Source: Acidobacteriota bacterium (GTDB lineage Bacteria > Acidobacteriota > Terriglobia > Terriglobales > Acidobacteriaceae). Taken from it: DNA of 64,000 nucleotides. Positions 50,736-62,045 of the stretch are shown piece after piece. The stretch spans positions 62,001 through 126,000 of the forward strand of contig JABCZL010000008.1 in NCBI GenBank assembly GCA_013289685.1, read 5' to 3'. The number at the start of each line of letters is the position of its first letter. Position 1 is the stretch's first letter. The position numbers and the translations under genes were made by a program. Under the pieces are notes generated by a model. It did no database searches. It saw only the letters and a list, made by a program, of their open reading frames with translations, and was not told where the DNA came from.

Positions 50736-51796
50736 TTTCAAATCTGGCGGCCATCACCGGTATCGGCTCGGTGAGTCCCTATGGCCCGCTCGCCGGATTA
50801 ATCCCCCCGTGCCTGTTGGAACCCGAATCCCTCACCGCGTGGACCACCGCCGGACCGCGGCGAGCTTTTCTGGTGAAGCCATTTCGCCCCGCCAGCGTGG
50901 TGCCGGGCCTGAAGACCAGGCGCTTGGATCGCCTGTCAGCGTGGGCCCTGGTGGCTTCTTCTCTGGCCATTCAGGATGCTGGGATCGATCTGAGCCAGTT
51001 GGACCGGTCCCGGGTTGCGGTGGTGTTCGGCACTGGCTATGGGTGTGCGGAACTTACAGAGGCTTTTTTCCAAAGCGCTGCCGCCAATGGGTGGCGCGGG
51101 ACAGACCCCAGTCCGTTTCCCGAGGGGCTCGCCAACGCTCCGGCCAGTCATGTGGCTTTGTGGCATAGTCTGCGAGGGCCTAATATCACGGTCGGCAGCA
51201 CGGGCTTTGCCGGCGAGACTGCGTTGATCCAAGCAGCTTCGCTGCTACGCCACCGGCAGGCGGACCTGGCTATAGTGCTTGCAGGCGATACGCTGACGCG
51301 CACCGTCTACGAATGGTACGAGGCCGCGGGCCGGTTGTCGCCAGCCTGCTACAATTCGGAGCCTCTGCCGGAAGGCGGCGGATTTGTGCCCAGCGAAGGG
51401 GTAGCTGCATTGGTTCTGGAGCCGGCGGGCCGCCGGGAAGCGCGTGCCTATGCCCAGTTCAGCTCGGTCCGGTGGGCGGCGGGCGGCGGGGTGGCGGGAG
51501 GATGTGCGGCGGATGCGATCCGCCAAATGCTCGATGGTTCGGTTCCGAGTCTGACGATTTGCGCTGGGAATGGCGCACCTTGCGCTCCCAGCTCAGTAAC
51601 CGCTCTGGCGCGCGAGGTTGGCGGACCCTCCACAGCCATTGTCCCCGCCCAGGCGGTGGCCGCGGGTCTTATCGATGCTGGCGGTCTTCTGCATTTAATC
51701 CTGGCCTTGAGCAGCCGACCGCGCAAGGGACCGGCTCTCTTGCTGGGAACATCCGGCGACGGTGGTTTTGCGGCGGTTCTGCTGGAGCTGCCTTGA
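50732..51796 (+). CDS. Cys-less ketosynthase homologue, chain-length-factor-like
   Basis: A 354-residue thiolase-fold protein aligned with the preceding ketosynthase from start (AAITGIGSVSPYGPL) to end (GTSGDGGFAAVLLELP). The segment matching the active site reads TVGSTGFAGETALIQAASLL: the nucleophile cysteine is replaced by Phe. The NAHGTG histidine is also lost, the corresponding place reading CAGNGAPCAP. It is therefore unlikely to condense substrates itself. Like KS-beta/CLF subunits, it may set chain length with the coupled KS-alpha. It ends in a 20-bp duplicated sequence. Confidence 0.85.
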   Translation: MISNLAAITGIGSVSPYGPLAGLIPPCLLEPESLTAWTTAGPRRAFLVKPFRPASVVPGLKTRRLDRLSAWALVASSLAIQDAGIDLSQLDRSRVAVVFGTGYGCAELTEAFFQSAAANGWRGTDPSPFPEGLANAPASHVALWHSLRGPNITVGSTGFAGETALIQAASLLRHRQADLAIVLAGDTLTRTVYEWYEAAGRLSPACYNSEPLPEGGGFVPSEGVAALVLEPAGRREARAYAQFSSVRWAAGGGVAGGCAADAIRQMLDGSVPSLTICAGNGAPCAPSSVTALAREVGGPSTAIVPAQAVAAGLIDAGGLLHLILALSSRPRKGPALLLGTSGDGGFAAVLLELP

Positions 51797-51820
51797 ATAT
51801 GCTGGAGCTGCCTTGAATAT
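51781..51820 (+). repeat. Perfect 20-bp tandem duplication of stop, RBS and start
   Basis: GCTGGAGCTGCCTTGAATAT occurs twice in direct tandem (51781-51800, 51801-51820). Each copy holds GGAG, a TGA and the AT of a following ATG. The first ATG (51799) opens a five-codon frame MLELP ending at the second TGA; the second ATG (51819) starts the KAS III-like gene. Confidence 0.95.
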
Positions 51821-52817
51821 GACTGTGCGAATCGCAGCCGCGACGTATGCCGTTCCGCCCGACGGTGAGTCCGTGGAAGCGGTCCTGCGGCGGGAAAATG
51901 ATCGAGTGGAGACCACGCTCGCCCCGCTGAGCCCGCAAGCCAGACAAAAGGCGGAGGAAGGTCTTGGACTGAGCCGCGTCCGAGTCTGCAGTGGCAAGCA
52001 GCCCTATGACTTGGTCCTCGAAGCTGCTTCCACAGCGATTGCGGAGGCTGGGATCACGGGGAAAGACATCAATCTCATCCTCGATTACAGTACTTTCCCG
52101 GGAGAAAATTCGCAGCATCTCTCTTTCGCTCACAAACTCAGCGCCGACCTCGGGGCTGAAACTTCGGTGAATCTGAGTTTCAAATCCGGAGGGTGCGGAG
52201 CGCTACACTTGGCGATGAAGACCGCGCTGGGCTGGATGAGTACTGACGAAAGCATTCACACCGCGCTGCTGGTGACGGGCGACGCCGCGCCCGCCGGCAG
52301 CCGCTCACTGCTTCCAGTAACGGTGCAAGGCGACGCCGGGAGTGCGGTTATTCTGCGGCGGGAAGGCGCGGAAGGTCCGCTGCTGCTGGGCATCGAGGTC
52401 ATGACGCTCGGCCATCTGCACGATGCCATTTCCCTGGTCAAGACGAACGGCCATCTCGAAATCAAGGTGGATGCGGCGTGCATGGAAAACGAAGTGATGC
52501 CGGTCTACTATCTGAATTTGTACTGGCTGGTGCAAAAAGTCCTTAATGCGTCTTCCCTGAGGTTGAACAACATTGATCATTTCATTTATTCCAATATCAG
52601 CCAGCGGGATCGCGAGGGTTTCCGCAGAATGGTGGGATTGCCCCCGGGCGGGCTGCCGCCAACCCCCATGGCAGAGTACGGTCACACTTTTGCCAGCGAC
52701 CTTGTCATCAATTATGTGCATCTGCGGCGCGAAGGTCGAATTCGTCCCGGCCAATTGTTGTTATTCGCTTCCGCTGGGATCGGTTTCACCTGGGGGGTGA
52801 CGCTTGCCCGCGCCTGA
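51819..52817 (+). CDS. KAS III-like beta-ketoacyl synthase
   Basis: A 332-residue thiolase-fold enzyme. The nucleophile cysteine is in FKSGGCGALHLAMKTAL. The usual KAS III His and Asn positions appear altered (HFIYSNIS in place of HQAN; EYGHTFASDLVIN in place of GNTSAAS). It may prime chain synthesis or join two chains, as DarB-like members do in flexirubin pathways; which one is open. ATG 51819 follows GGAG in the second repeat copy. Its last codons overlap the ligase start. Confidence 0.82.
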   Translation: MTVRIAAATYAVPPDGESVEAVLRRENDRVETTLAPLSPQARQKAEEGLGLSRVRVCSGKQPYDLVLEAASTAIAEAGITGKDINLILDYSTFPGENSQHLSFAHKLSADLGAETSVNLSFKSGGCGALHLAMKTALGWMSTDESIHTALLVTGDAAPAGSRSLLPVTVQGDAGSAVILRREGAEGPLLLGIEVMTLGHLHDAISLVKTNGHLEIKVDAACMENEVMPVYYLNLYWLVQKVLNASSLRLNNIDHFIYSNISQRDREGFRRMVGLPPGGLPPTPMAEYGHTFASDLVINYVHLRREGRIRPGQLLLFASAGIGFTWGVTLARA

Positions 52818-54435
52818 AAGAACCGCGCCTGCAGGCTTCGCACATGAAAGTGTCCTGCTGTCGGACTGGCTTCGGCGAACGGCGGCGGCCTCGCCTGATG
52901 CGCCGGCCATCGTTGAACAAGATCGAAGTGGAAAAGATCGGGTCACGACTTTCCGTGAGTTGTTCGAGCAAGCTGCCGTGCTGGCCGTGCGGTTCGTCGA
53001 ACACGGCATCCGGAAGCAAGATCGCATCGCCCTGGTGCTGCCGAAAACTACCGAAGCGATTGTCTCAGTGTTCGCGTCGCTGCTTGCTGGAGCCGTCTAT
53101 GTTCCGATCCACCCGCAGTGGCCGAAAGAACGAATCGAAACGACCTTGGCGGATTGCGGGGCGCGGCTGGTGATTGAGGGCGACGAGAATTCGTCGCCGC
53201 GAATTATCGACCGCGAGACCGGCGAAAACATCGTTTGGGACGCGCCGGATATTCGTCGCGACATTTCCGCCGAACACTTCCACTTGCTGCCCCGAGCAGA
53301 CGCCGGCGATCCAGCTTTTATTCTTTTTACCTCGGGATCTACTGGGCGGCCCAAGGGAGTGGTTCTTTCCCACCGCGCGGTAAGCGCTTTCGTGGAATGG
53401 TCCGCGCGTGAGTTTCAGATCAGTTCCGCCGATCGCATCGCGTGCCCCTCGCCTCTCAGTTTCGATCTTTCCACTCTTGACATCTTCAGTATGGCGTTGT
53501 GCGGCGCCACTTGCGTGCTGGTGCCCGGCGATATCGTGTGGATGCCCCGTTTTTTGGTGGAGTTCGTGCGCGAGGCCCGCATCACGTTTTGGTATTCCGT
53601 GCCGTCGATCCTGTCCGGCATGTTAGCCGAGGGAGGGTTGGAGCAGCATGAGTGCCCCGGTCTGCGCGTCATCCTCTTCGCGGGAGAGGTCTTTCGCGGT
53701 CAGGACGTGGCGCGGTTGCAGGCCGCGGTGCCACAGGCGGTTTGCGCGAACCTCTACGGCCCCACCGAGACGAATGTGGTCACATGGTGCCGCGTGCCGA
53801 GCGGTTTCGACGGATCGCAGCCGTTGCCTATCGGCCAGCCCTGTCCCTACGCCACGGTGACCGTAGATGCAACCAGTGGCGAGTTGCTCGCTGGCGGTGA
53901 TTCGCTGATGAGTGGATATTGGAACCGTCCCGAGGATACGCAGCGTGCCTTCGTCACCTTGGAGGGCAAACGGTATTACCGCACCGGGGACCGCGTGTCA
54001 CGCGCGCCCGATGGCAATTATCTTTTCCTGGGACGGCTGGACCGGCAAGTGAAGCGCCGCGGTTTCCGCGTTGAACTGGGGGAAATCGAGACTGCGCTCG
54101 CGGGCCGCGAGGATATACTGGAAGCGGCGGCAGTGGCTGTCGAGAACGGGAATGCGGGAACCGCCATCACTGCTTTTGTCCGGGCCCGTTCCGCCGGCGC
54201 TCTCACCCTGGTCGAAGTGAAGGCCCACTGTGCGCGAACACTGCCTCTGTATATGTTGCCCGATCACATCCTGTTTCTAGATGTTATCCCGAAGGGAAGC
54301 CGGGGCAAGATCGATTACATAGCTTTAGGCAAAATCGCAGATGAACTCGACCAAGCTGCACTGAACCAAGCTTCACTAGACCAGGCTTCACTAAACCATG
54401 GAGATCAAGACCGCAGTCCGGCAGTTCATCGCTGA
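52804..54435 (+). CDS. AMP-binding acyl/aryl-ACP ligase (adenylation enzyme)
   Basis: A 543-residue adenylating enzyme. Motifs in order are FILFTSGSTGRPKGVVLSH, a core YGPTETNVVTW, YYRTGDRV, LDRQVKRRGFRVELGEIE and the C-terminal lysine region PKGSRGKIDY. It would activate a carboxylic acid with ATP and load it on the ACP encoded next to it; the specificity pocket was not decoded. TTG 52804 overlaps the KAS III-like stop and follows GGGGGGTG. The C-terminus is a repeat-derived tail LDQAA-LNQAS-LDQAS-LNHGD. Confidence 0.88.
   Translation: MPAPERTAPAGFAHESVLLSDWLRRTAAASPDAPAIVEQDRSGKDRVTTFRELFEQAAVLAVRFVEHGIRKQDRIALVLPKTTEAIVSVFASLLAGAVYVPIHPQWPKERIETTLADCGARLVIEGDENSSPRIIDRETGENIVWDAPDIRRDISAEHFHLLPRADAGDPAFILFTSGSTGRPKGVVLSHRAVSAFVEWSAREFQISSADRIACPSPLSFDLSTLDIFSMALCGATCVLVPGDIVWMPRFLVEFVREARITFWYSVPSILSGMLAEGGLEQHECPGLRVILFAGEVFRGQDVARLQAAVPQAVCANLYGPTETNVVTWCRVPSGFDGSQPLPIGQPCPYATVTVDATSGELLAGGDSLMSGYWNRPEDTQRAFVTLEGKRYYRTGDRVSRAPDGNYLFLGRLDRQVKRRGFRVELGEIETALAGREDILEAAAVAVENGNAGTAITAFVRARSAGALTLVEVKAHCARTLPLYMLPDHILFLDVIPKGSRGKIDYIALGKIADELDQAALNQASLDQASLNHGDQDRSPAVHR
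54346..54405 (+). repeat. 15-bp tandem repeat at the ligase end carrying the ACP start
   Basis: Four 15-bp units begin at 54346, 54361, 54376 and 54391 (CTNRACCAAGCTTCA type). The fourth contains ATG 54398, the start of the ACP gene in another frame. Confidence 0.9.
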
Positions 54436-54685
54436 AAACGTTCTGCTCGGTGTACACCAGACCGTGATCGAGGATGCCACGCCGCTCGTCACCGGCGGGC
54501 TCATCGACTCGATCGGGATGATCGGCCTCGTGACTTTTCTGGAAGCGCGTTTCAACGTTGAATTTGTGCCGCGAGAAATCAACGTTCACAGCCTGGATAC
54601 GCTGGAGCAGATCGACGAACTGATCCGGAAAAAACTTGCTGGCCAGGGAACTGGCGCGGCCGATAACGGACAGACAACTCGGTGA
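54398..54685 (+). CDS. Acyl carrier protein (second)
   Basis: A 95-residue carrier protein. The phosphopantetheine serine is in TGGLIDSIGMIGLVTFLEARFNVEF. It overlaps the ligase gene by 38 bp, which suggests it is the ligase's dedicated partner, distinct from the ACP at 48169. The last dozen residues (GTGAADNGQTTR) are probably disordered. Confidence 0.88.
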   Translation: MEIKTAVRQFIAENVLLGVHQTVIEDATPLVTGGLIDSIGMIGLVTFLEARFNVEFVPREINVHSLDTLEQIDELIRKKLAGQGTGAADNGQTTR

Positions 54686-54694
54686 GGTGCCGCG

Positions 54695-55609
54695 GTGTGG
54701 AAGCGTTGGAGCCTAAGAGCACTGGCACTGGTAGCGACGTTGTTTCTCACCCTACTGTTTCTGACCGCGTGGTTTCTGTTCGCGTCCCAACGCAAAGAGG
54801 CCTTCGAAAAGGAGCCACTCGCCCGCGGCCAAATCGAAGTGGTGCGCCTCTCGGAACGCACTAACCTCGCAGTGGAACGCGTTCGTTTCTGGTCCAACGA
54901 AATGAACGAGCCCCGCTTTTTCCTGGCTCTGGTACCCAAAACATCCGTTGCTCCCTCGGAAGTTTTCATCTTGAATCACGGTTGGCGCGACCGGCCAGAG
55001 GACCTGTTGAAACATCTCAAAGTGGACCAGGTCTACGACGAGATGCTGGGCCGGCATGAGGTGCGGCCCGCGATCGTGGTCCTGCCCGACGTTCGCTTCG
55101 ACAGCTTTTACCGGGAGTTCTCCGACCGCTTTCCCTACCCTAACTATCTGACGCTGGTGGCGGAGGAGGTGGCGGGAACGGTCTCGCGCCACTACGCCAT
55201 CCCCTTCGAACGGCAGCGTTGGGCGATCGGCGGCTTCTCCTTCGGCGGTTATTTGTCGCTGGATGTGGGAAGGCGCTTTCCCGGCCGGTTCGCCAGCGTT
55301 AGCGTGGTGAGTGGACTTGTGGATAAGGAGTGGAGCTTCTGGCCTTCGCAACCGCCGCCGCCCGGGCCGCTCGATTCCCAGGGCCGTGGCAAGCACACAA
55401 TCGTCGTGCCCGGTCCGGTTCCAAGACTTTTCCTCGCCTGCGGAACGGATGATCATCTTTTTTCTACCATGCGCGATCTGCATGAAAAGCTAACGGAACT
55501 CGGCATCCCTCATGGATGGTCGACGGCACCGGGCGCGCACACCTGGAAATACTGGTCTTCGGTCCTGCCCATGATGTTCAGATTCCACCTGGCGACTGAA
55601 CAAAAGTAA
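54695..55609 (+). CDS. Membrane-anchored esterase, alpha/beta hydrolase (esterase D-like)
   Basis: A 304-residue protein with an N-terminal membrane segment (LRALALVATLFLTLLFLTAWFLF) and an alpha/beta hydrolase domain like esterase D/enterochelin esterase. The nucleophile serine is in IGGFSFGGYLSL, the acid is near CGTDDHLF, and the histidine is in GAHTWKYW. It may release or trim the finished chain outside the cytoplasm. GTG 54695 lies 9 bp after the ACP stop. It is the last gene of the locus. Confidence 0.82.
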   Translation: MWKRWSLRALALVATLFLTLLFLTAWFLFASQRKEAFEKEPLARGQIEVVRLSERTNLAVERVRFWSNEMNEPRFFLALVPKTSVAPSEVFILNHGWRDRPEDLLKHLKVDQVYDEMLGRHEVRPAIVVLPDVRFDSFYREFSDRFPYPNYLTLVAEEVAGTVSRHYAIPFERQRWAIGGFSFGGYLSLDVGRRFPGRFASVSVVSGLVDKEWSFWPSQPPPPGPLDSQGRGKHTIVVPGPVPRLFLACGTDDHLFSTMRDLHEKLTELGIPHGWSTAPGAHTWKYWSSVLPMMFRFHLATEQK

Positions 55610-55696: not shown

Positions 55697-55797
55697 CACC
55701 GCACTTAATTCTGTGGGTGCGAACTCGATGGCGTTTGTGGAATGCCTGCGAGTCGCAACATGGTTTTCACTTCAGCGTCACTGGCGATTGGTGGGGA

Positions 55798-58700
55798 ATG
55801 GGGACATCTGTGAGTAATTTCAGGAGACTTGCGTTTCTAGTGGTGACCACTCTTGCGGTTCTGACCCTTGCAAGCTTGAACCTGGCTGCGCAGCAGATCA
55901 CCGGAAGCATTCGCGGAACTGTGCTGGATCCGAGCGGGGCGATTGTTCAGGCCGCCACGGTCACTGCAAAGCAGATCGAGACCGGCTTGACTCGTGCTGC
56001 GGTCACGGATCATCAGGGACAGTACGTGCTGGTCGAACTGCCGATCGGGCATTACCAGTTGGAGGTTCAGGCGAAAGGTTTCCAGAAACACTTGCAGCAA
56101 GGGATTTCATTGGATCTCAACGAAACCGCGACGGTCAGCATTCACCTCAAGGTCGGGTCGGAGAGTCAACAAGTCGAAGTGAGCGCGGATGCCGCCCTGG
56201 TGCAGAGCACGGTCAGCAGTCTCGGGCAAACCGTGATGGAGCACGAGATTCTCGACCTGCCACTCGATGGCCGTAACTTCTCTCAGCTAGGAACGCTCCA
56301 ACCGGGTGTCGTGCCTCTGACTCCGGGTCTGCTCGAAGCTGGAGGCCCGGCGAGAGAGGGCCAAGCCTACGCCGTCGATGGCCAACGGCCGGAGTCGAAC
56401 AATTTTCTGATCGACGGAGCTGATAACGTCAACGCGGTAGACGCGGGGTTTGTTCTGAAGCCACCGATCGACGCGATCGCCGAGTTCAGGATTCTTACCC
56501 ACAACGCAAACGCCGAGTTCGGACGCAATACTGGCTCCACGACCAACGTCGTAACCCGCGGAGGGACGAATTCGTTTCACGGCGCCGCCTGGGAATTTCT
56601 GCGCAACGACGCGATGGATTCCTCCGATTACTTCACGCGCAGCGTTCAGCCTCTGAAGCAAAATCAGTTCGGCGCGACCTTCGGAGGTCCGATTGTCAAG
56701 GAGAAGACCTTCTTCTTCGGCTATTACGAGGGCTTCCGCAACCGGCAGGGCGAAACCGTGCCGGCCACCGTGCCTTCCGCAGCGGAGAGCCAGGGCAACT
56801 TCGGCGAGCTGTGCACGTCCATTCCCGGAGCTTCCCTTGACCCGACTACCGGTATGTGCAGCAATCCGCAAGGGCAGCTCACTTTCTTTGGAACACCGGT
56901 ACCATTCAACCAGATGACGATATTCACGCCCATCGATCCTACTGCCGCGAAAGTTGCGCCGTTTTTCCCTCTGCCCAACGTCGGAGAAAATGGATTCATC
57001 GCCACGCAGACCCTGATCGCGAATAACGACCAATTCGGCTTGCGCCTGGATCATTATCTTTCCCGTGCAGACACCCTGAATTTCCGCTACATGTACAGCA
57101 GTGGCCCGACTACAGATCCGCTTTCGCCGGTGGGCGCGAATGTCCCCGGCTTTCCAGTGGGCGAGGATGATCGCGCGCAGAACTTTGTCGCGCAAGAGAC
57201 CCATATCTTTTCGCCCAGCATCATCGGGGTCGCGCGCTTCTCGTATCTCCGCAATAAGTTCCTGCTGGACCAGCACCTGAATCATCAGTCGCCTGCGGAT
57301 CTGGGTTTCCAATACGCTCCTACACTAGCCTCGGCCGCCGGACCCCCGTTTATTCAGGTCGGCGGATACGCCTCGGTGGGCGACCCCATCACCGGACCGC
57401 GCAACACGTTTCAGAATACGTTTGACTTTTCCGGCTCGCTCAGCTGGATCCATGGCCGCCACGAATTCAAATTTGGCGGTGGCTACCGGCGCGACCAGAT
57501 CAATGCCCTGCAGGGCATCGCTACGAATGGATTTTTTGTATTCGCCGGCATCCCCTCATTCGCGAACTTCCTCTACAACGACGGCTTTGCCAACTTTCTT
57601 TCTGGCAACCCCGTGGTGTTTCTACAGGGCGGCGGAGACTTTGCTCGTGAAATCCGCGGTCGCGCTGTGGACGCGTACGGACAGGACAACTACAAGGTCA
57701 ACGAACATCTGACGCTGAACCTGGGAGTTCGTTACGAACTTCCCTTTCCTTTCACCGAGAATCAAAACCGGGTGAATCTCTTCGTTCCCGGAGCGCAATC
57801 GAGAGTACTGCCGAACGCTCCGGCTGGACTTCTCTATCCCGGCGATGCTGGCGTTCCGGCGGGCTTGATTCCAACGCAGAAGACAGCTTTCGCGCCGCGC
57901 TTCGGACTTGCGTGGGATCCGCGCGGCGACGCCAAAACGGTGGTCAGCGCGGCCTATGGGATTTTCTACGAACCGTACTACACCGGCGAAGGCGGTCCGC
58001 TGCAGGATCCAGTCAGTGCTCCTCCATACCTGAAGACTCTGCAGTTGGGATTTCCCATCAACTCATTTTCCAATCCGTTTTATACCCCGAATCCATTCGG
58101 AGTGCCGTTCCCCCAGCCAATGACGTTGCTGGTGGTTTCGCGCAATCTGCATCTGCCCTACGCGCAGGATTGGAATCTGAACATTCAACGTTCATTCGGG
58201 GAGGCCTGGCTGTTGCAGGTGGGATACGTGGGCACGACTGGTGTGAGGCTGCCGCGATTCATCGAAGGGAATCCTGCCGTCTATTATCCCGGCGTGGACA
58301 CTACCAGCCCTGGCTGCTCGAATCCCAATCCGCCATGTCCGATTTCCACTGAGAATAATGTAAACCAGCGACGCCTGTACTCCGGATGCACCCTGGCCCA
58401 GCCGAATAATTGCGTGTACGGTTCGGTCGGCGAGATCGCGAGTATTTCGAACTCCAGTTACAACGCGTTGGAAGCCAGCCTGCGCAAGCGATTCAGCCAC
58501 GGCCTGTCGTTCCTCGCGTCTTATACCTGGTCGCACTCCATCGATGACGTTTCATCTTTCAACATCACGGGATCGGCTTCGCAGCCCGTCGCGGGGGAGA
58601 ACGACCTGGCGCAGAATCCCTTCGATCTCGCTGCGGAGCGAGGGCCATCCATGTTCGATGCCCGCCATCGCCTGGTGCTGAGTTATCAGTGGAGCCTGCC

Positions 58701-59217
58701 CTTCCTGCGACACTCTGCCACCTGGTACGGCAAGGTTCTGGGCAACTGGCAGTTGAACGGGATTTTCACGGCCATGAGCGGCACGCCGTTCACGGTATTC
58801 GACTCGAACGACGTTTCGCTGCAAGGGCAGGCACCCGAGATTTCTGGATTTTCCAGCAATCGGCCGAACGTTGTGGGCAACCCGAATTCCGGGCCACGTA
58901 CGGCCGCACAGTGGTTCAATGTGAAAGCCTTTCAACAAATCGTCCAGGACCCGAATTCTCCGGTCGAGCAGTTTGGGAACGAGGGTCGCAACGCAGTGCT
59001 GGGCCCGCGGTACGTGAACTGGGACTTCTCGGCGTTCAAGAATATTCGTCTGACGGAATCGAAAGAACTGCAATTCCGCGGTGAGTTGTTCAACCTGCTG
59101 AACCACACCAATTACCGTTTGCCGGTCAGCGACATTGAATCGACGACGACGTTCGGGCAAATCCAGTCGGATGTGAGCCCGCGCGTGATCCAGGTCGCCC
59201 TGAAGTTTCTATTCTGA
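55798..59217 (+). CDS. Oar-type TonB-dependent receptor
   Basis: An outer-membrane receptor of 1139 residues. It has a signal peptide (RRLAFLVVTTLAVLTLASLNLAAQ), a carboxypeptidase-regulatory-like domain (GSIRGTVLDPSGAIVQAATVTAKQ), a plug (PLDGRNFSQLGTLQPGVVPL, LIDGADNVNAVDAGF) and a beta-barrel ending in LKFLF. ATG 55798 is used. GTG 55810, with GGGGA just upstream, is an equally good start, and the frame is open to 55717. The stop overlaps ATG 59217 (TGATG), so it is translationally coupled to the deiodinase-like selenoprotein. Confidence 0.92.
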   Translation: MGTSVSNFRRLAFLVVTTLAVLTLASLNLAAQQITGSIRGTVLDPSGAIVQAATVTAKQIETGLTRAAVTDHQGQYVLVELPIGHYQLEVQAKGFQKHLQQGISLDLNETATVSIHLKVGSESQQVEVSADAALVQSTVSSLGQTVMEHEILDLPLDGRNFSQLGTLQPGVVPLTPGLLEAGGPAREGQAYAVDGQRPESNNFLIDGADNVNAVDAGFVLKPPIDAIAEFRILTHNANAEFGRNTGSTTNVVTRGGTNSFHGAAWEFLRNDAMDSSDYFTRSVQPLKQNQFGATFGGPIVKEKTFFFGYYEGFRNRQGETVPATVPSAAESQGNFGELCTSIPGASLDPTTGMCSNPQGQLTFFGTPVPFNQMTIFTPIDPTAAKVAPFFPLPNVGENGFIATQTLIANNDQFGLRLDHYLSRADTLNFRYMYSSGPTTDPLSPVGANVPGFPVGEDDRAQNFVAQETHIFSPSIIGVARFSYLRNKFLLDQHLNHQSPADLGFQYAPTLASAAGPPFIQVGGYASVGDPITGPRNTFQNTFDFSGSLSWIHGRHEFKFGGGYRRDQINALQGIATNGFFVFAGIPSFANFLYNDGFANFLSGNPVVFLQGGGDFAREIRGRAVDAYGQDNYKVNEHLTLNLGVRYELPFPFTENQNRVNLFVPGAQSRVLPNAPAGLLYPGDAGVPAGLIPTQKTAFAPRFGLAWDPRGDAKTVVSAAYGIFYEPYYTGEGGPLQDPVSAPPYLKTLQLGFPINSFSNPFYTPNPFGVPFPQPMTLLVVSRNLHLPYAQDWNLNIQRSFGEAWLLQVGYVGTTGVRLPRFIEGNPAVYYPGVDTTSPGCSNPNPPCPISTENNVNQRRLYSGCTLAQPNNCVYGSVGEIASISNSSYNALEASLRKRFSHGLSFLASYTWSHSIDDVSSFNITGSASQPVAGENDLAQNPFDLAAERGPSMFDARHRLVLSYQWSLPFLRHSATWYGKVLGNWQLNGIFTAMSGTPFTVFDSNDVSLQGQAPEISGFSSNRPNVVGNPNSGPRTAAQWFNVKAFQQIVQDPNSPVEQFGNEGRNAVLGPRYVNWDFSAFKNIRLTESKELQFRGELFNLLNHTNYRLPVSDIESTTTFGQIQSDVSPRVIQVALKFLF

Positions 59218-59963
59218 TGCTGAAGGTGAGTCCCTCAACCCGCAGGCTCCTGAGCAGACTTCTGGTCGGCCTGGCGCTCCTCTACGTTTGTTTCGGAGTT
59301 TACATCGTGTGGGCGATGCGTCAACCTCCAGAAACGTTCGCCCGCGTGATGGCCAGAATGCCGGGCCCGGTCCCTTTCCTGATCTTTCCGTTTGAAACTG
59401 CCTGGACCCACGCTCGCGCGGGTACGCTGCACGTTGGAGATCACGCGCCAGACTTCTCGCTGCTCAAGGTGGATAAGAGCGAGCGGGTTCAGCTCTCCGC
59501 GCTAAACCAGAGGCAACCCGTGGTGCTGGTGTTCGGCAGCTACACTTGACCGCCGTTCCGGCGGGAGGTTCCCGCCCTCAACAAGCTCTACCAGCAGTAT
59601 CGCGATCGAGTTGCGTTTCTGGTGGTCTACATTACCGAGGCCCATCCCAGCGACGTTTGGCAGATGCAGAGCAACATCAAAGACAACGTTGTTTTTGCCA
59701 GCCCGAAAACTGAAGATGATCGAGCCTTCATCGCCGGGGCGTGCGTGCGGAAACTTGGGATCGAGTTTCCGGCCGTCCTCGACGAGTTTGGCAATTCGAC
59801 CGAGCAAGCCTATACCGGCTGGCCCGACCGTATTTATTTGATCGACTCGCAAGGCCGGGTTGCGTACAAGAGCCGGCCGGGGCCGTTTGGATTTAAGCCC
59901 GATCAATTAGGAACCGCGTTGGCGCAGACGCTGAGAACGCAAGCCACGCAAGCCACGAAGTAG
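59217..59963 (+). CDS. Deiodinase-like selenoprotein (in-frame TGA read as Sec)
   Basis: The frame from ATG 59217 meets TGA at 59547-59549 and continues without a stop to TAG 59963, giving 248 residues with Sec at 111. A membrane segment (about residues 11-34) is followed by a thioredoxin-like domain. The sequence around the TGA reads VLVFGSYT-U-PPFRREVPALNKLY, matching the FGS-x-T-U-P-x-F active site of iodothyronine deiodinases. FLVVYITEAHPSDVW downstream is another deiodinase-family signature. A hairpin with a GGU loop at the right distance lies just after the TGA. The product is probably a membrane-tethered thiol/selenol reductase; iodothyronine as substrate is not implied. Reading the TGA as a stop would remove the catalytic residue and everything after it. 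Confidence 0.88.
59547..59576 (+). promoter_or_regulatory. UGA codon with bacterial SECIS-like hairpin
   Basis: After TGA 59547-59549, GGCGGGA (59560-59566) pairs perfectly with TCCCGCC (59570-59576) around the loop GGT. The loop starts 17 nt after the TGA and has G in its first two positions, as expected for bacterial SECIS elements recognised by SelB. A competing small hairpin (CCGCCG / CGGCGG) overlaps its 5' side. Confidence 0.75.
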
Positions 59964-60025
59964 GAAGTGCCGCTCTCTCTCGCACTATCTCTTGACCCGC
60001 TCCTCGAGTACCACGAAGCGAAAGC

Positions 60026-61351
60026 CTATTCGATTCCCAGTTGTTTCTGGATTTGTTCCAGGGGCACACCCTTCGTCTCCGGAACCATCGTCTTTACCCA
60101 GATGAGCTGCAACACCATCATGCCGGTAAAGAAGGAAAAAACGTAACCGGGGGGAAAGGAGGTAACCATTCTGGGGAAGTACGTCGTGAGCAGGGCGGCG
60201 AAGATCCAGTGCGTGGAGCTGCCGAGAGTCTGACCTTCCGCGCGCTGACGATTGGGAAATATCTCGGAAATGAAAACCCAAATGACGGCGCCCTGACCGA
60301 TGGCGTGGGCAGCAATGAAAGCGAAGATGCAGACCGGCACGATGGAAAAATGATTGGTGAAGAAGGCCCAGGCCGCCAGACCGAGCGAAGTGATGTAGCC
60401 GAACGATCCGATGTAGAGCAGCGTGCGGCGGCCCAACCGGTCAATCAGCCACAGGCCGACAAACGTGAAAACCAGATTGGTAACGCCAATTCCAATGGAT
60501 TGCAGCAGGGCGGTTTTCGCGGCGAGGCCGGTCAGCTCAAAAATGCGCGGCGCGAAATACAGAATCGCATTGATGCCCGACATCTGGTTGAAGAAGGCAA
60601 TCAGGATGGCGAGCAGGATTGGTTTGCTGAGCTGTCTCGTCCAGAAATGTCCTGACCTACCTTGCTGCGACGATGCGGCGACAATCGCATCCGCCTGGGC
60701 CGCGATTTCGGCCTTCGCAGCGTCCGGCTCGATTCGTTGCAGAACTTGCAGAGCGGCTTCGCGGTCGCCCTTCCGGCTGAGCAGCCAACGTGGACTCTCC
60801 GGAAGGCCGAAGCAAAACACGGCGTAAAGAAACGATGGAAACGCGGCCACACCCAGCATCCAGCGCCAGGCGTTTTCGCCGATTCCCGCGAGCAGCGCGT
60901 TCGAAACGTAAGCGATCAGGATGCCAAAAACAATGTTGAACTGAAACATGCCGGCCAGACGTCCGCGATGCTTGGGCGGCGCGATCTCCGAGATGTACAT
61001 GGGCGCAACCACGGTCGAAATGCCGATGCCCAACCCGCCGATCACGCGCGCTGCGATGAACGTGGCAACGTTTGGCGCTAACCCTGAACCCACGGCACCG
61101 ACAAAGTAAAGCACGCCGATCCAAAGCAGCGTGGCTTTGCGTCCGAATCGATCAGCGAGCCAGCCACCGACCAGGGAACCGACGACCGTGCCGTAAAGGG
61201 CCGAAGCGATCGCTCTGCCGTGCAGTTCGGGGCTGAGTCCCCACAGCGCCTGAATCGTTTTTTCGGCACCGGAAATCACGACGGTGTCGAAGCCGAAGAG
61301 AAATCCGGCAAGCGCCGACGTCAGCGACCAGAACAGGATGCGAGCATTCAT
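60026..61351 (-). CDS. MFS sugar porter
   Basis: A 441-residue, 12-segment transporter of the major facilitator sugar-porter family. Signatures are GFLFGFDTVVISGAEKTI in segment 1, ADRFGRKATLLWIG in loop 2-3, FGLPESPRWLLSRKGDREAAL before the central loop, DRLGRRTLLYIG in loop 8-9 and VPETKGVPLEQIQ at the C-terminus. It probably imports a hexose or pentose with protons. It converges on the selenoprotein gene 62 bp away. Confidence 0.93.
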   Translation of the reverse strand: MNARILFWSLTSALAGFLFGFDTVVISGAEKTIQALWGLSPELHGRAIASALYGTVVGSLVGGWLADRFGRKATLLWIGVLYFVGAVGSGLAPNVATFIAARVIGGLGIGISTVVAPMYISEIAPPKHRGRLAGMFQFNIVFGILIAYVSNALLAGIGENAWRWMLGVAAFPSFLYAVFCFGLPESPRWLLSRKGDREAALQVLQRIEPDAAKAEIAAQADAIVAASSQQGRSGHFWTRQLSKPILLAILIAFFNQMSGINAILYFAPRIFELTGLAAKTALLQSIGIGVTNLVFTFVGLWLIDRLGRRTLLYIGSFGYITSLGLAAWAFFTNHFSIVPVCIFAFIAAHAIGQGAVIWVFISEIFPNRQRAEGQTLGSSTHWIFAALLTTYFPRMVTSFPPGYVFSFFTGMMVLQLIWVKTMVPETKGVPLEQIQKQLGIE

Positions 61352-61907: not shown

Positions 61908-62045
61908 CGGCAGACCTCGGATGTCGGACCTCGGACCTCAGACCTCGGACCTTCAGCCGCAGAAAGCCCCTCCTCAGGAATTCGAACCTACAGGGTCTGA
62001 GGTTTAAGGTCCGAGGTCTGTGGTCTGAAGTCTGAAGTCTGCCCG
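61908..62045. repeat. Heptad-type repeat array with inverted half (array B)
   Basis: GACCTCGG/GACCTCAG-type units at about 61912-61951 are mirrored by the opposite orientation (GGTCTGAGGTTTAAGGTCCG and further GGTCTGAAGTCTGAAG units) at about 61996-62041. The intervening 45 bp carry nothing I recognise. The whole could form a long imperfect hairpin. Confidence 0.85.

Follow-up and report, generated by a model that had tools for sequence, protein, structure and literature searches.

A deiodinase-like selenoprotein gene with an in-frame UGA and a SECIS-type hairpin in Acidobacteriota

In a 64,000-nucleotide stretch of DNA from an Acidobacteriota bacterium (assembly GCA_013289685.1, contig JABCZL010000008.1, forward-strand positions 62,001 to 126,000; hereafter the window, with positions counted from its first base), mechanical open reading frame (ORF) calling places a 110 amino acid (aa) ORF at 59217-59549 and a 113 aa ORF at 59622-59963, the latter from a GTG start at 59622. 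The question raised by this locus is whether these are the remnants of a broken gene, two separate genes, or a single gene, here called dio, in which an internal UGA is read as selenocysteine (Sec). A first-pass annotation had proposed the last of these, a deiodinase-like selenoprotein gene that gene callers would split, and this split is what the ORF listing returns; interrupted at its Sec codon, dio is easily missed by plain ORF finding. It is very probably a functional selenoprotein gene, because its UGA is kept at a Sec/Cys site, the hairpin that follows is subject to selection at the RNA level, and the genome encodes the decoding machinery. Its product is placed among the Sec-containing members of the deiodinase family with as much certainty as sequence can give.

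Conservation of the frame and its UGA codon

The frame of dio begins with ATG at 59217, meets a single TGA at 59547-59549, runs on for another 137 codons and closes with TAG at 59961-59963, exactly as first annotated, and the residues flanking the TGA (FGSYT, then PPFR) as well as EAHPSDVW downstream are all present in the translation. Relatives were sought in 200 genomes of the same family, the source genome (G000) and 199 others. Matches at E<=1e-3 came from 134 of these, and many of the proteins matched are only remotely related, thioredoxin-like ones; the Sec site was read in each fetched locus that covered it. TGA occupies this site in 55 of 55 distinct readable orthologues above 55% identity, the window's own included, with the motif FGSYT-U-PPFR nearly invariant; one locus (L047) was excluded for its run of N. 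The TGA form is common in the family (58 of the 199 other genomes), and dio is present in strains named as isolates, namely Edaphobacter lichenicola X5P2, Acidicapsa dinghuensis 4GSKX and Occallatibacter savannae AB23.

Among five genes read at 41-45% identity, three have TGA (G024, G080, G165) and two have TGC, with the motifs FGSFTCPPFR (G056) and FGSYTCPNFR (G036), and a homologue at 34% identity (G011) also has TGC. Cys is the residue at the Sec position in loci L098, L101 and L108, and these Cys homologues are read as one continuous frame. Among loci from named genomes, which partly overlap the family set, TGA was found in 80 of 80, these being the best 80 of 320 relatives found; the named relatives are Acidobacteriota, mostly Terriglobia. 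Across the phylum, PF00837 matches at E<=1e-6 occurred in 30 of 396 genomes drawn, and 23 further loci were read with a script limited to U or C, giving Sec in 16 and Cys in 7; left out were L214, L220 and L231 (no readable motif), L229 (frame broken) and duplicates of family genomes. When relatives in other phyla were sought among plasmids, three weak hits at 25-36% identity came up.

The combination of an unrelated sense codon with frame decay in close relatives, which the first-pass annotation had named as the observation that would speak against a selenoprotein, was not found, as the non-TGA codons read are Cys codons and the part of the gene 3' of the TGA is under purifying selection (nonsynonymous divergence, dN, 0.06-0.08 and synonymous divergence, dS, above 1.1 against five relatives). 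One point that does count against an intact gene throughout is that dio copies in four more distant drafts (G048, G068, G086, G107) appear frame-split, perhaps through assembly errors. That the TGA marks a pseudogene or a sequencing error, a stop having replaced a codon for Cys or another residue, would agree with the two listed ORFs but is scarcely credible, since every one of the 55 orthologues and of the 80 kept named-genome loci (partly the same genomes) has a TGA at this very residue and purifying selection acts beyond it.

The SECIS-type hairpin and the decoding machinery

Starting 11 nt past the TGA, the strands GGCGGGA (59560-59566) and UCCCGCC (59570-59576) pair over 7 bp around the loop GGU (59567-59569), which lies 17 nt from the TGA; in all these measures the first-pass description was exact. 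Judged by comparison across orthologues, the hairpin is a selenocysteine insertion sequence (SECIS)-type element under RNA-level selection, and it is regarded as more than chance because all 55 orthologues retain the TGA and codons +5 to +7 after it are frozen. Among codons for the same residue, +5 is CGG in 54/54, +6 is GAG in 55/55 and +7 is GTT in 52/52, against backgrounds of 0.21, 0.50 and 0.21, respectively, while synonymous entropy is zero at these three positions and 0.39 at +4 (background 2.17) and rises again from +8. In 98 distinct flanks the seven stem pairs are formed in 82, 83, 97, 96, 98, 98 and 93, and the apical loop is GGU in 92 and GGC in 4; one of these flanks (L154, the named-genome copy of the excluded L047) is probably a misread row.

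In the divergent group at about 43% identity the register of the hairpin is kept; the loop reads AGGUG in one member and is a near variant of this in two, and pairs are swapped at three of the seven stem positions, which alters the amino acids too. In a covariation alignment of 16 flanks (A2, selected by hand so as to be varied; one of its rows is cut three bases too late), neither the covariation score nor the number of cells paired was reached by any of 500 shuffles. Sequences of the TGC form never gave such a hairpin as their best fold.

Several results weigh against this assignment. The three pairs changed on both sides in A2 were matched by 105 of 500 shuffles, and since they all stem from a single divergent group with three members, they amount to one event. 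The minimum-energy fold of 60 nt is a competing hairpin at -16.9 kcal/mol, the conserved one alone reaching -13.3 kcal/mol, and the single-sequence fold is unexceptional (z -1.34, with 17 of 200 shuffles as good). However, the conserved hairpin enters the best fold once at least 6 nt, counted from the TGA itself, are withheld, and a ribosome positioned on the UGA would withhold these nucleotides and so favour it. The SECIS claim of the first-pass annotation holds by comparison across orthologues but not by the single-sequence folding it had recommended, which prefers the rival hairpin; folding alone would not reveal the element, and comparison is needed. An Rfam scan of 58500-60500 at E<=5 returned two weak snoRNA matches only, which were dismissed as chance.

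The source genome (6.85 Mb in 48 contigs, 98.9% complete) encodes the machinery whose absence, it had been proposed, would undermine a selenoprotein: SelA (548.9 bits, cut-off 267.9), SelB (348.8 bits, cut-off 242.25) and a tRNA-Sec with anticodon UCA were all found, as was SelD (363.4 bits, cut-off 125). In the family, SelB at E<=1e-60 is present in 49 of 58 other genomes with a TGA-form dio versus 59 of the 141 remaining (Fisher 2e-8; this and the later Fisher values count related genomes, so that independence is overstated). Of the nine TGA-form genomes without such a SelB, seven have SelA above its cut-off, and SelA over the cut-off was not found in G073 (68% complete) and G160 (59% complete); the TGC-form genome G056, 100% complete, has neither SelB at E<=1e-60 nor SelA above the cut-off. 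Sec-form dio genes go together with the Sec machinery. Following the known bacterial pathway, SelD, SelA and tRNA-Sec would make the Sec-tRNA, which SelB, bound to the hairpin at 59560-59576, would bring to the ribosome at UGA 59547, and translation would then continue to 59963.

A UGA read as Trp, or passed by leaky readthrough, can be set aside with near certainty: nothing was found in its favour, animal deiodinases have Sec at the site and homologues have Cys, the family loci read without codon restriction include no Trp codon, and the full Sec machinery, tRNA-Sec and a SECIS-type hairpin are present. SelD is itself a selenoprotein by sequence, with an in-frame TGA in AAGUASK at residue 11 of the match (G000:C13:22161-23099, equal to L054:1501-2439).

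Family, fold and topology of the product

The read-through protein matches PF00837 at E 2.5e-31 (109.2 bits, cut-off 27), with weaker Pfam matches to AhpC-TSA and Redoxin; this match and the alignment with Cys homologues and mouse Dio2/Dio3 bear out the proposed deiodinase family membership with Sec at the active site. Residues 72-239 also match NCBIfam NF038285 'deiodinase family protein' at E 1.8e-59, with 202 bits under a cut-off of 250 and covering only positions 177-344 of the 347-position model. A phmmer search of PDB sequences returned mouse Dio3 (E 8.8e-22) and Dio2 (1.7e-19), followed by ResA (4e-5). AlphaFold2, given 46 sequences, predicts one domain spanning the TGA after a helix at residues 6-34, with a mean predicted local distance difference test score (pLDDT) of 94.3 and a predicted template modelling score (pTM) of 0.89. 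Foldseek places Dio2 (9h48, 4.1e-13) and Dio3 (4tr3, 2.4e-12) on top for this model, with template modelling scores to the target of 0.81 and 0.76 and identity in the fold match of about 27-31%, followed by ResA and, lower down, 1-Cys peroxiredoxins.

In the alignment of the 46 sequences (A1), F106, G107, S108, T110, position 111, P112, F114 and R115 are invariant, as are E141, A142, H143 and W148 of EAHPSDVW, a stretch that aligns with EAHPSDGW of mouse Dio2 and Dio3. The available text of PMC11592359 gives catalytic roles to Dio2 residues 127, 129, 130, 157, 160, 162 and 167 (Ser, Thr, Sec, Tyr, Glu, His and Trp), and this core is present in full in the window protein as S108, T110, U111, Y138, E141, H143 and W148. 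With the animal enzymes it further shares the thioredoxin fold, FGSxTUPPF (solved there as Cys mutants), the Tyr, EAHPSD.W and a GP[FD] near the end. The likeness has its limits, and these count against the proposed reading: the second relay His of the animal enzymes (Dio2 H182) is replaced by P163, and the clamp (Dio2 K241, Dio3 R275) by P221, adjoined by R220. The strained Phe258 of the animal enzymes corresponds to Pro203, and their proximal Cys to Y109. A tree of 41 sequences puts mouse Dio2 and Dio3 within a 31-row group that holds the window protein (branch 100/99), giving them no resolved exact sister, and the window protein is not classed as a thyroid-hormone deiodinase.

ResA is membrane-anchored and has a CxxC active site. 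ResA-type thiol-disulfide oxidoreductases have the same fold as the window protein, and their membrane anchoring resembles the topology proposed for it; CxxC variants appear among the ResA matches of Foldseek, whereas the window protein has Sec and no Cys at +3 (F114). The N-terminal side of its helix is Arg-rich by eye, which under the positive-inside rule points to a catalytic domain outside the cytoplasm, so that this domain probably faces the periplasm.

The single predicted domain bears on whether a 110 aa membrane stub and a second protein are made instead. A GTG start is present at 59622, but two proteins are highly improbable, because one confidently modelled domain (mean pLDDT 94.3) crosses the TGA, the invariant P112, F114 and R115 fall between the TGA and the GTG, and the Cys homologues are read as a single continuous frame. 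The features of the selenoprotein gene and of its upstream neighbour are collected in Table 1.

Table 1. Features of the dio locus (window coordinates)
Feature	Position	Strand	Basis
dio, deiodinase-like selenoprotein gene	59217..59963	+	248 aa with Sec111; PF00837, phmmer, AlphaFold2, Foldseek
UGA codon read as selenocysteine, residue 111	59547..59549	+	TGA kept in orthologues
Active-site stretch FGSYTUPPFR	59532..59561	+	invariant residues in alignment A1
SECIS-type hairpin, 7 bp, loop GGU 59567-59569	59560..59576	+	frozen synonymous sites, paired changes, pair counts
EAHPSDVW, loop common to animal deiodinases	59637..59660	+	A1 and match to mouse Dio2/Dio3
N-terminal hydrophobic helix, residues 6-34, probable membrane anchor	59232..59318	+	AlphaFold2 model
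TonB/Oar-type outer-membrane receptor gene	55717..59217	+	PF25183, PF13620, PF00593

As a kind, the deiodinase-like bacterial selenoprotein has been known since 2005, from the Sargasso Sea (PMC1088965) and then the Global Ocean Sampling data of 2008 (PMC2398784). In the available portions of these reports such proteins share with dio the PF00837 domain, an in-frame UGA, a downstream bacterial SECIS and Cys homologues, and come from marine reads, while dio is from soil Acidobacteriota. The accessible parts of reviews from 2022 and 2026 give UxxC as their motif, the 2008 table (PMC2398784) giving none; dio instead has UPPF, and UxxC occurs in one of the 16 Sec loci read across the phylum. That locus, L230 (genome G426), carries UPYC and represents a divergent Sec form of the deiodinase-like proteins, in addition to the common UPPF one. 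Context also sets dio apart from the known bacterial systems, namely the sel genes, an AhpD-like selenoprotein and the receptor. An orthologous protein may already be counted among the three known selenoprotein genes of Occallatibacter riparius that the available text of PMC12013277 lists without names. A literature search that did not extend to subscription papers turned up no report of an acidobacterial gene of this kind with AhpD, sel genes or dehalogenases as neighbours. The present analysis adds the occurrence of the UPPF form in Acidobacteriota, how widely it is distributed among them, and the genes that surround it.

Gene neighbours and possible function

What deiodinase-like selenoproteins do in bacteria was not settled in 2005 (PMC1088965) and, in the accessible text of the 2026 review, still is not. 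The neighbours of dio suggest that some compound is taken up and treated by redox chemistry; as recurrent partner genes they lead to a concrete hypothesis, dehalogenation of an imported compound.

The receptor gene of Table 1 ends in a TGA (59215-59217) that overlaps the dio ATG (59217-59219) by one base. Homologues at >=61% identity number 28 in the 200 family genomes, the window's own included, at the strict threshold of E<=1e-250, at which fragments can be lost. Among the matches listed for AhpD-like genes, at least 14 of the 28 lie within 3 kb of dio (six) or of an AhpD-like gene (eight others). The Sec form of dio is found in 21 of the 27 other receptor genomes versus 37 of 172 receptor-less ones (p 2e-8), and within SelB genomes in 20 of 22 receptor genomes (p 1e-6). 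A broader reading, in which every TonB receptor next to dio would carry meaning, was considered and rejected, as the other receptors near dio are paralogues at 23-33% identity; only the subfamily at >=61% identity recurs near dio.

The second recurrent association is with sel genes and AhpD-like genes, which match TIGR01926 'peroxidase-related enzyme'. In eight genomes (G040, G072, G102, G129, G169, G175, G186, G191) selB, an AhpD-like selenoprotein gene (CPYU) and dio follow in a row, the matches to AhpD and dio lying 18-54 bp apart on one strand, and six of the eight have a complete selD-selA-selB and tRNA-Sec at the same locus (SelD, SelA and AhpD are named by NCBIfam for G072 only, and SelB of G102 is below its cut-off). 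G184 has the AhpD(U)-dio pair alone. AhpD(U) of this type (>=61% identity, Sec site covered) occurs in 26 genomes, 22 of which have the Sec form of dio (Fisher 4e-10), and within SelB genomes in 24, of which 20 carry it (p 4e-5). In four genomes (G005, G027, G092, G126) an amino-acid permease gene lies between AhpD(U) and an oppositely oriented receptor gene.

Other AhpD-like genes were observed in the source genome and its relatives. A third candidate selenoprotein of the source genome is an AhpD-like protein with CVYU (G000:C9:268555-268971, minus strand; L232), which has just 36% identity to the AhpD(U) adjoining dio in relatives; many relatives carry copies at similar identity, each with one in-frame TGA. 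An AhpD-like CxxC gene (G000:C9:132150-132647, in L013) stands tail to tail with selB, an arrangement found by coordinates also in G006, G190, G123, G143 and others, and AhpD-like CxxC genes directly adjoin dio in G160 (L070:5352-5888) and the Cys-form dio in G056 (L098:4864-5967).

In two genomes without a SelB match (G047, G089; SelA was not searched there, and they are not called Sec-less), three genes come after the receptor gene in the same orientation: an AhpD-like gene (CPYC), a gene for a reductive dehalogenase (RDH)-like protein and a major facilitator superfamily (MFS) transporter gene, these three overlapping at their ends (L235:1433-7869 in G047, L234:12-5835 in G089). The RDH-like proteins match TIGR02486 at E 1.8e-33 and 5.9e-33, below the cut-off, and that of G089 matches PceA 4uqu (E 4.5e-27) and 4ras (E 7.9e-26). 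Of the PceA active-site residues Tyr246, Arg305 and Asn272, the first two have aligned counterparts retained in the RDH-like protein and the third does not. In G040, the receptor and an MFS transporter 88% identical to that of G089 directly precede tRNA-Sec, the sel genes, AhpD(U) and dio(U). Of the 200 genomes, 16 carry RDH-like genes, four of them with SelB, and the same MFS type is found in 7 of 17 RDH-like loci within 1.5-kb flanks.

As an RDH-like protein appears in the same setting where SelB is missing, dehalogenation is the first guess, and the role of dio is tentatively proposed to be the reductive removal of halogen from a compound imported by the upstream TonB-type receptor. The product would be an enzyme with a thioredoxin fold, belonging to the deiodinase family, held in the membrane by its N-terminal helix and facing the periplasm, in which the selenolate of Sec111 would act as nucleophile with S108, T110, Y138, E141, H143 and W148 as in animal deiodinases, and re-reduction would be by cellular thiols or by a partner such as the AhpD-like protein.

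Parts of the gene context tell against this role. Neither an AhpD-like gene nor this receptor was seen in 38 of 55 dio loci (flanks up to about 6 kb, some shorter), and 14 of the 28 receptors have neither dio nor an AhpD-like gene, among the matches listed, within 3 kb. Inspection by eye shows no export signal in the AhpD-like proteins, and this speaks against their touching a periplasmic domain directly. The RDH-like proteins reach at most about 117 bits against the NCBIfam cut-off of 160, the Sec form of dio occurs in one of the 16 RDH-like genomes, far away there, and no RDH-like gene adjoins dio; as the two are mostly in different genomes and distant where both occur, the link between them runs through shared neighbours.

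About as likely as dehalogenation is that dio encodes a true selenoprotein acting as a general periplasmic thiol or peroxide reductase of ResA- or peroxiredoxin-like type. In the structural ranking the deiodinases are followed by ResA and, further down, by 1-Cys peroxiredoxins; AhpD-like (TIGR01926) partner genes would suit a thiol or peroxide reductase, and neighbouring Prx-like or AhpD-like selenoprotein genes are reported in the available portions of PMC13188914 and PMC2398784. Yet deiodinases outrank ResA by both sequence and fold, the EAH..W loop is of deiodinase type with no Cys at +3 (F114), and the receptor context is tied to the dehalogenase-like operons.

A broader form of the dehalogenation proposal, which is doubtful, is that Dio(U) of Acidobacteriota are true selenium-based reductive dehalogenases within a module of receptor, inner-membrane transporter and AhpD-like protein, with Dio(U) and AhpD(CxxU) in Sec lineages and a short corrinoid-type RDH-like protein and AhpD(CxxC) in SelB-less ones. 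If this were true, the thyroid-hormone deiodinases of animals would descend from a bacterial dehalogenase of the same chemistry.

Upstream of the receptor gene, at 51762-55609, lie genes for a ketoacyl-ACP-synthase-III-like protein, an AMP-binding ligase, a 95 aa protein and an esterase. The 95 aa protein gave no Pfam match and may be an acyl carrier, and the group, which is compact, looks like a small biosynthetic cluster.

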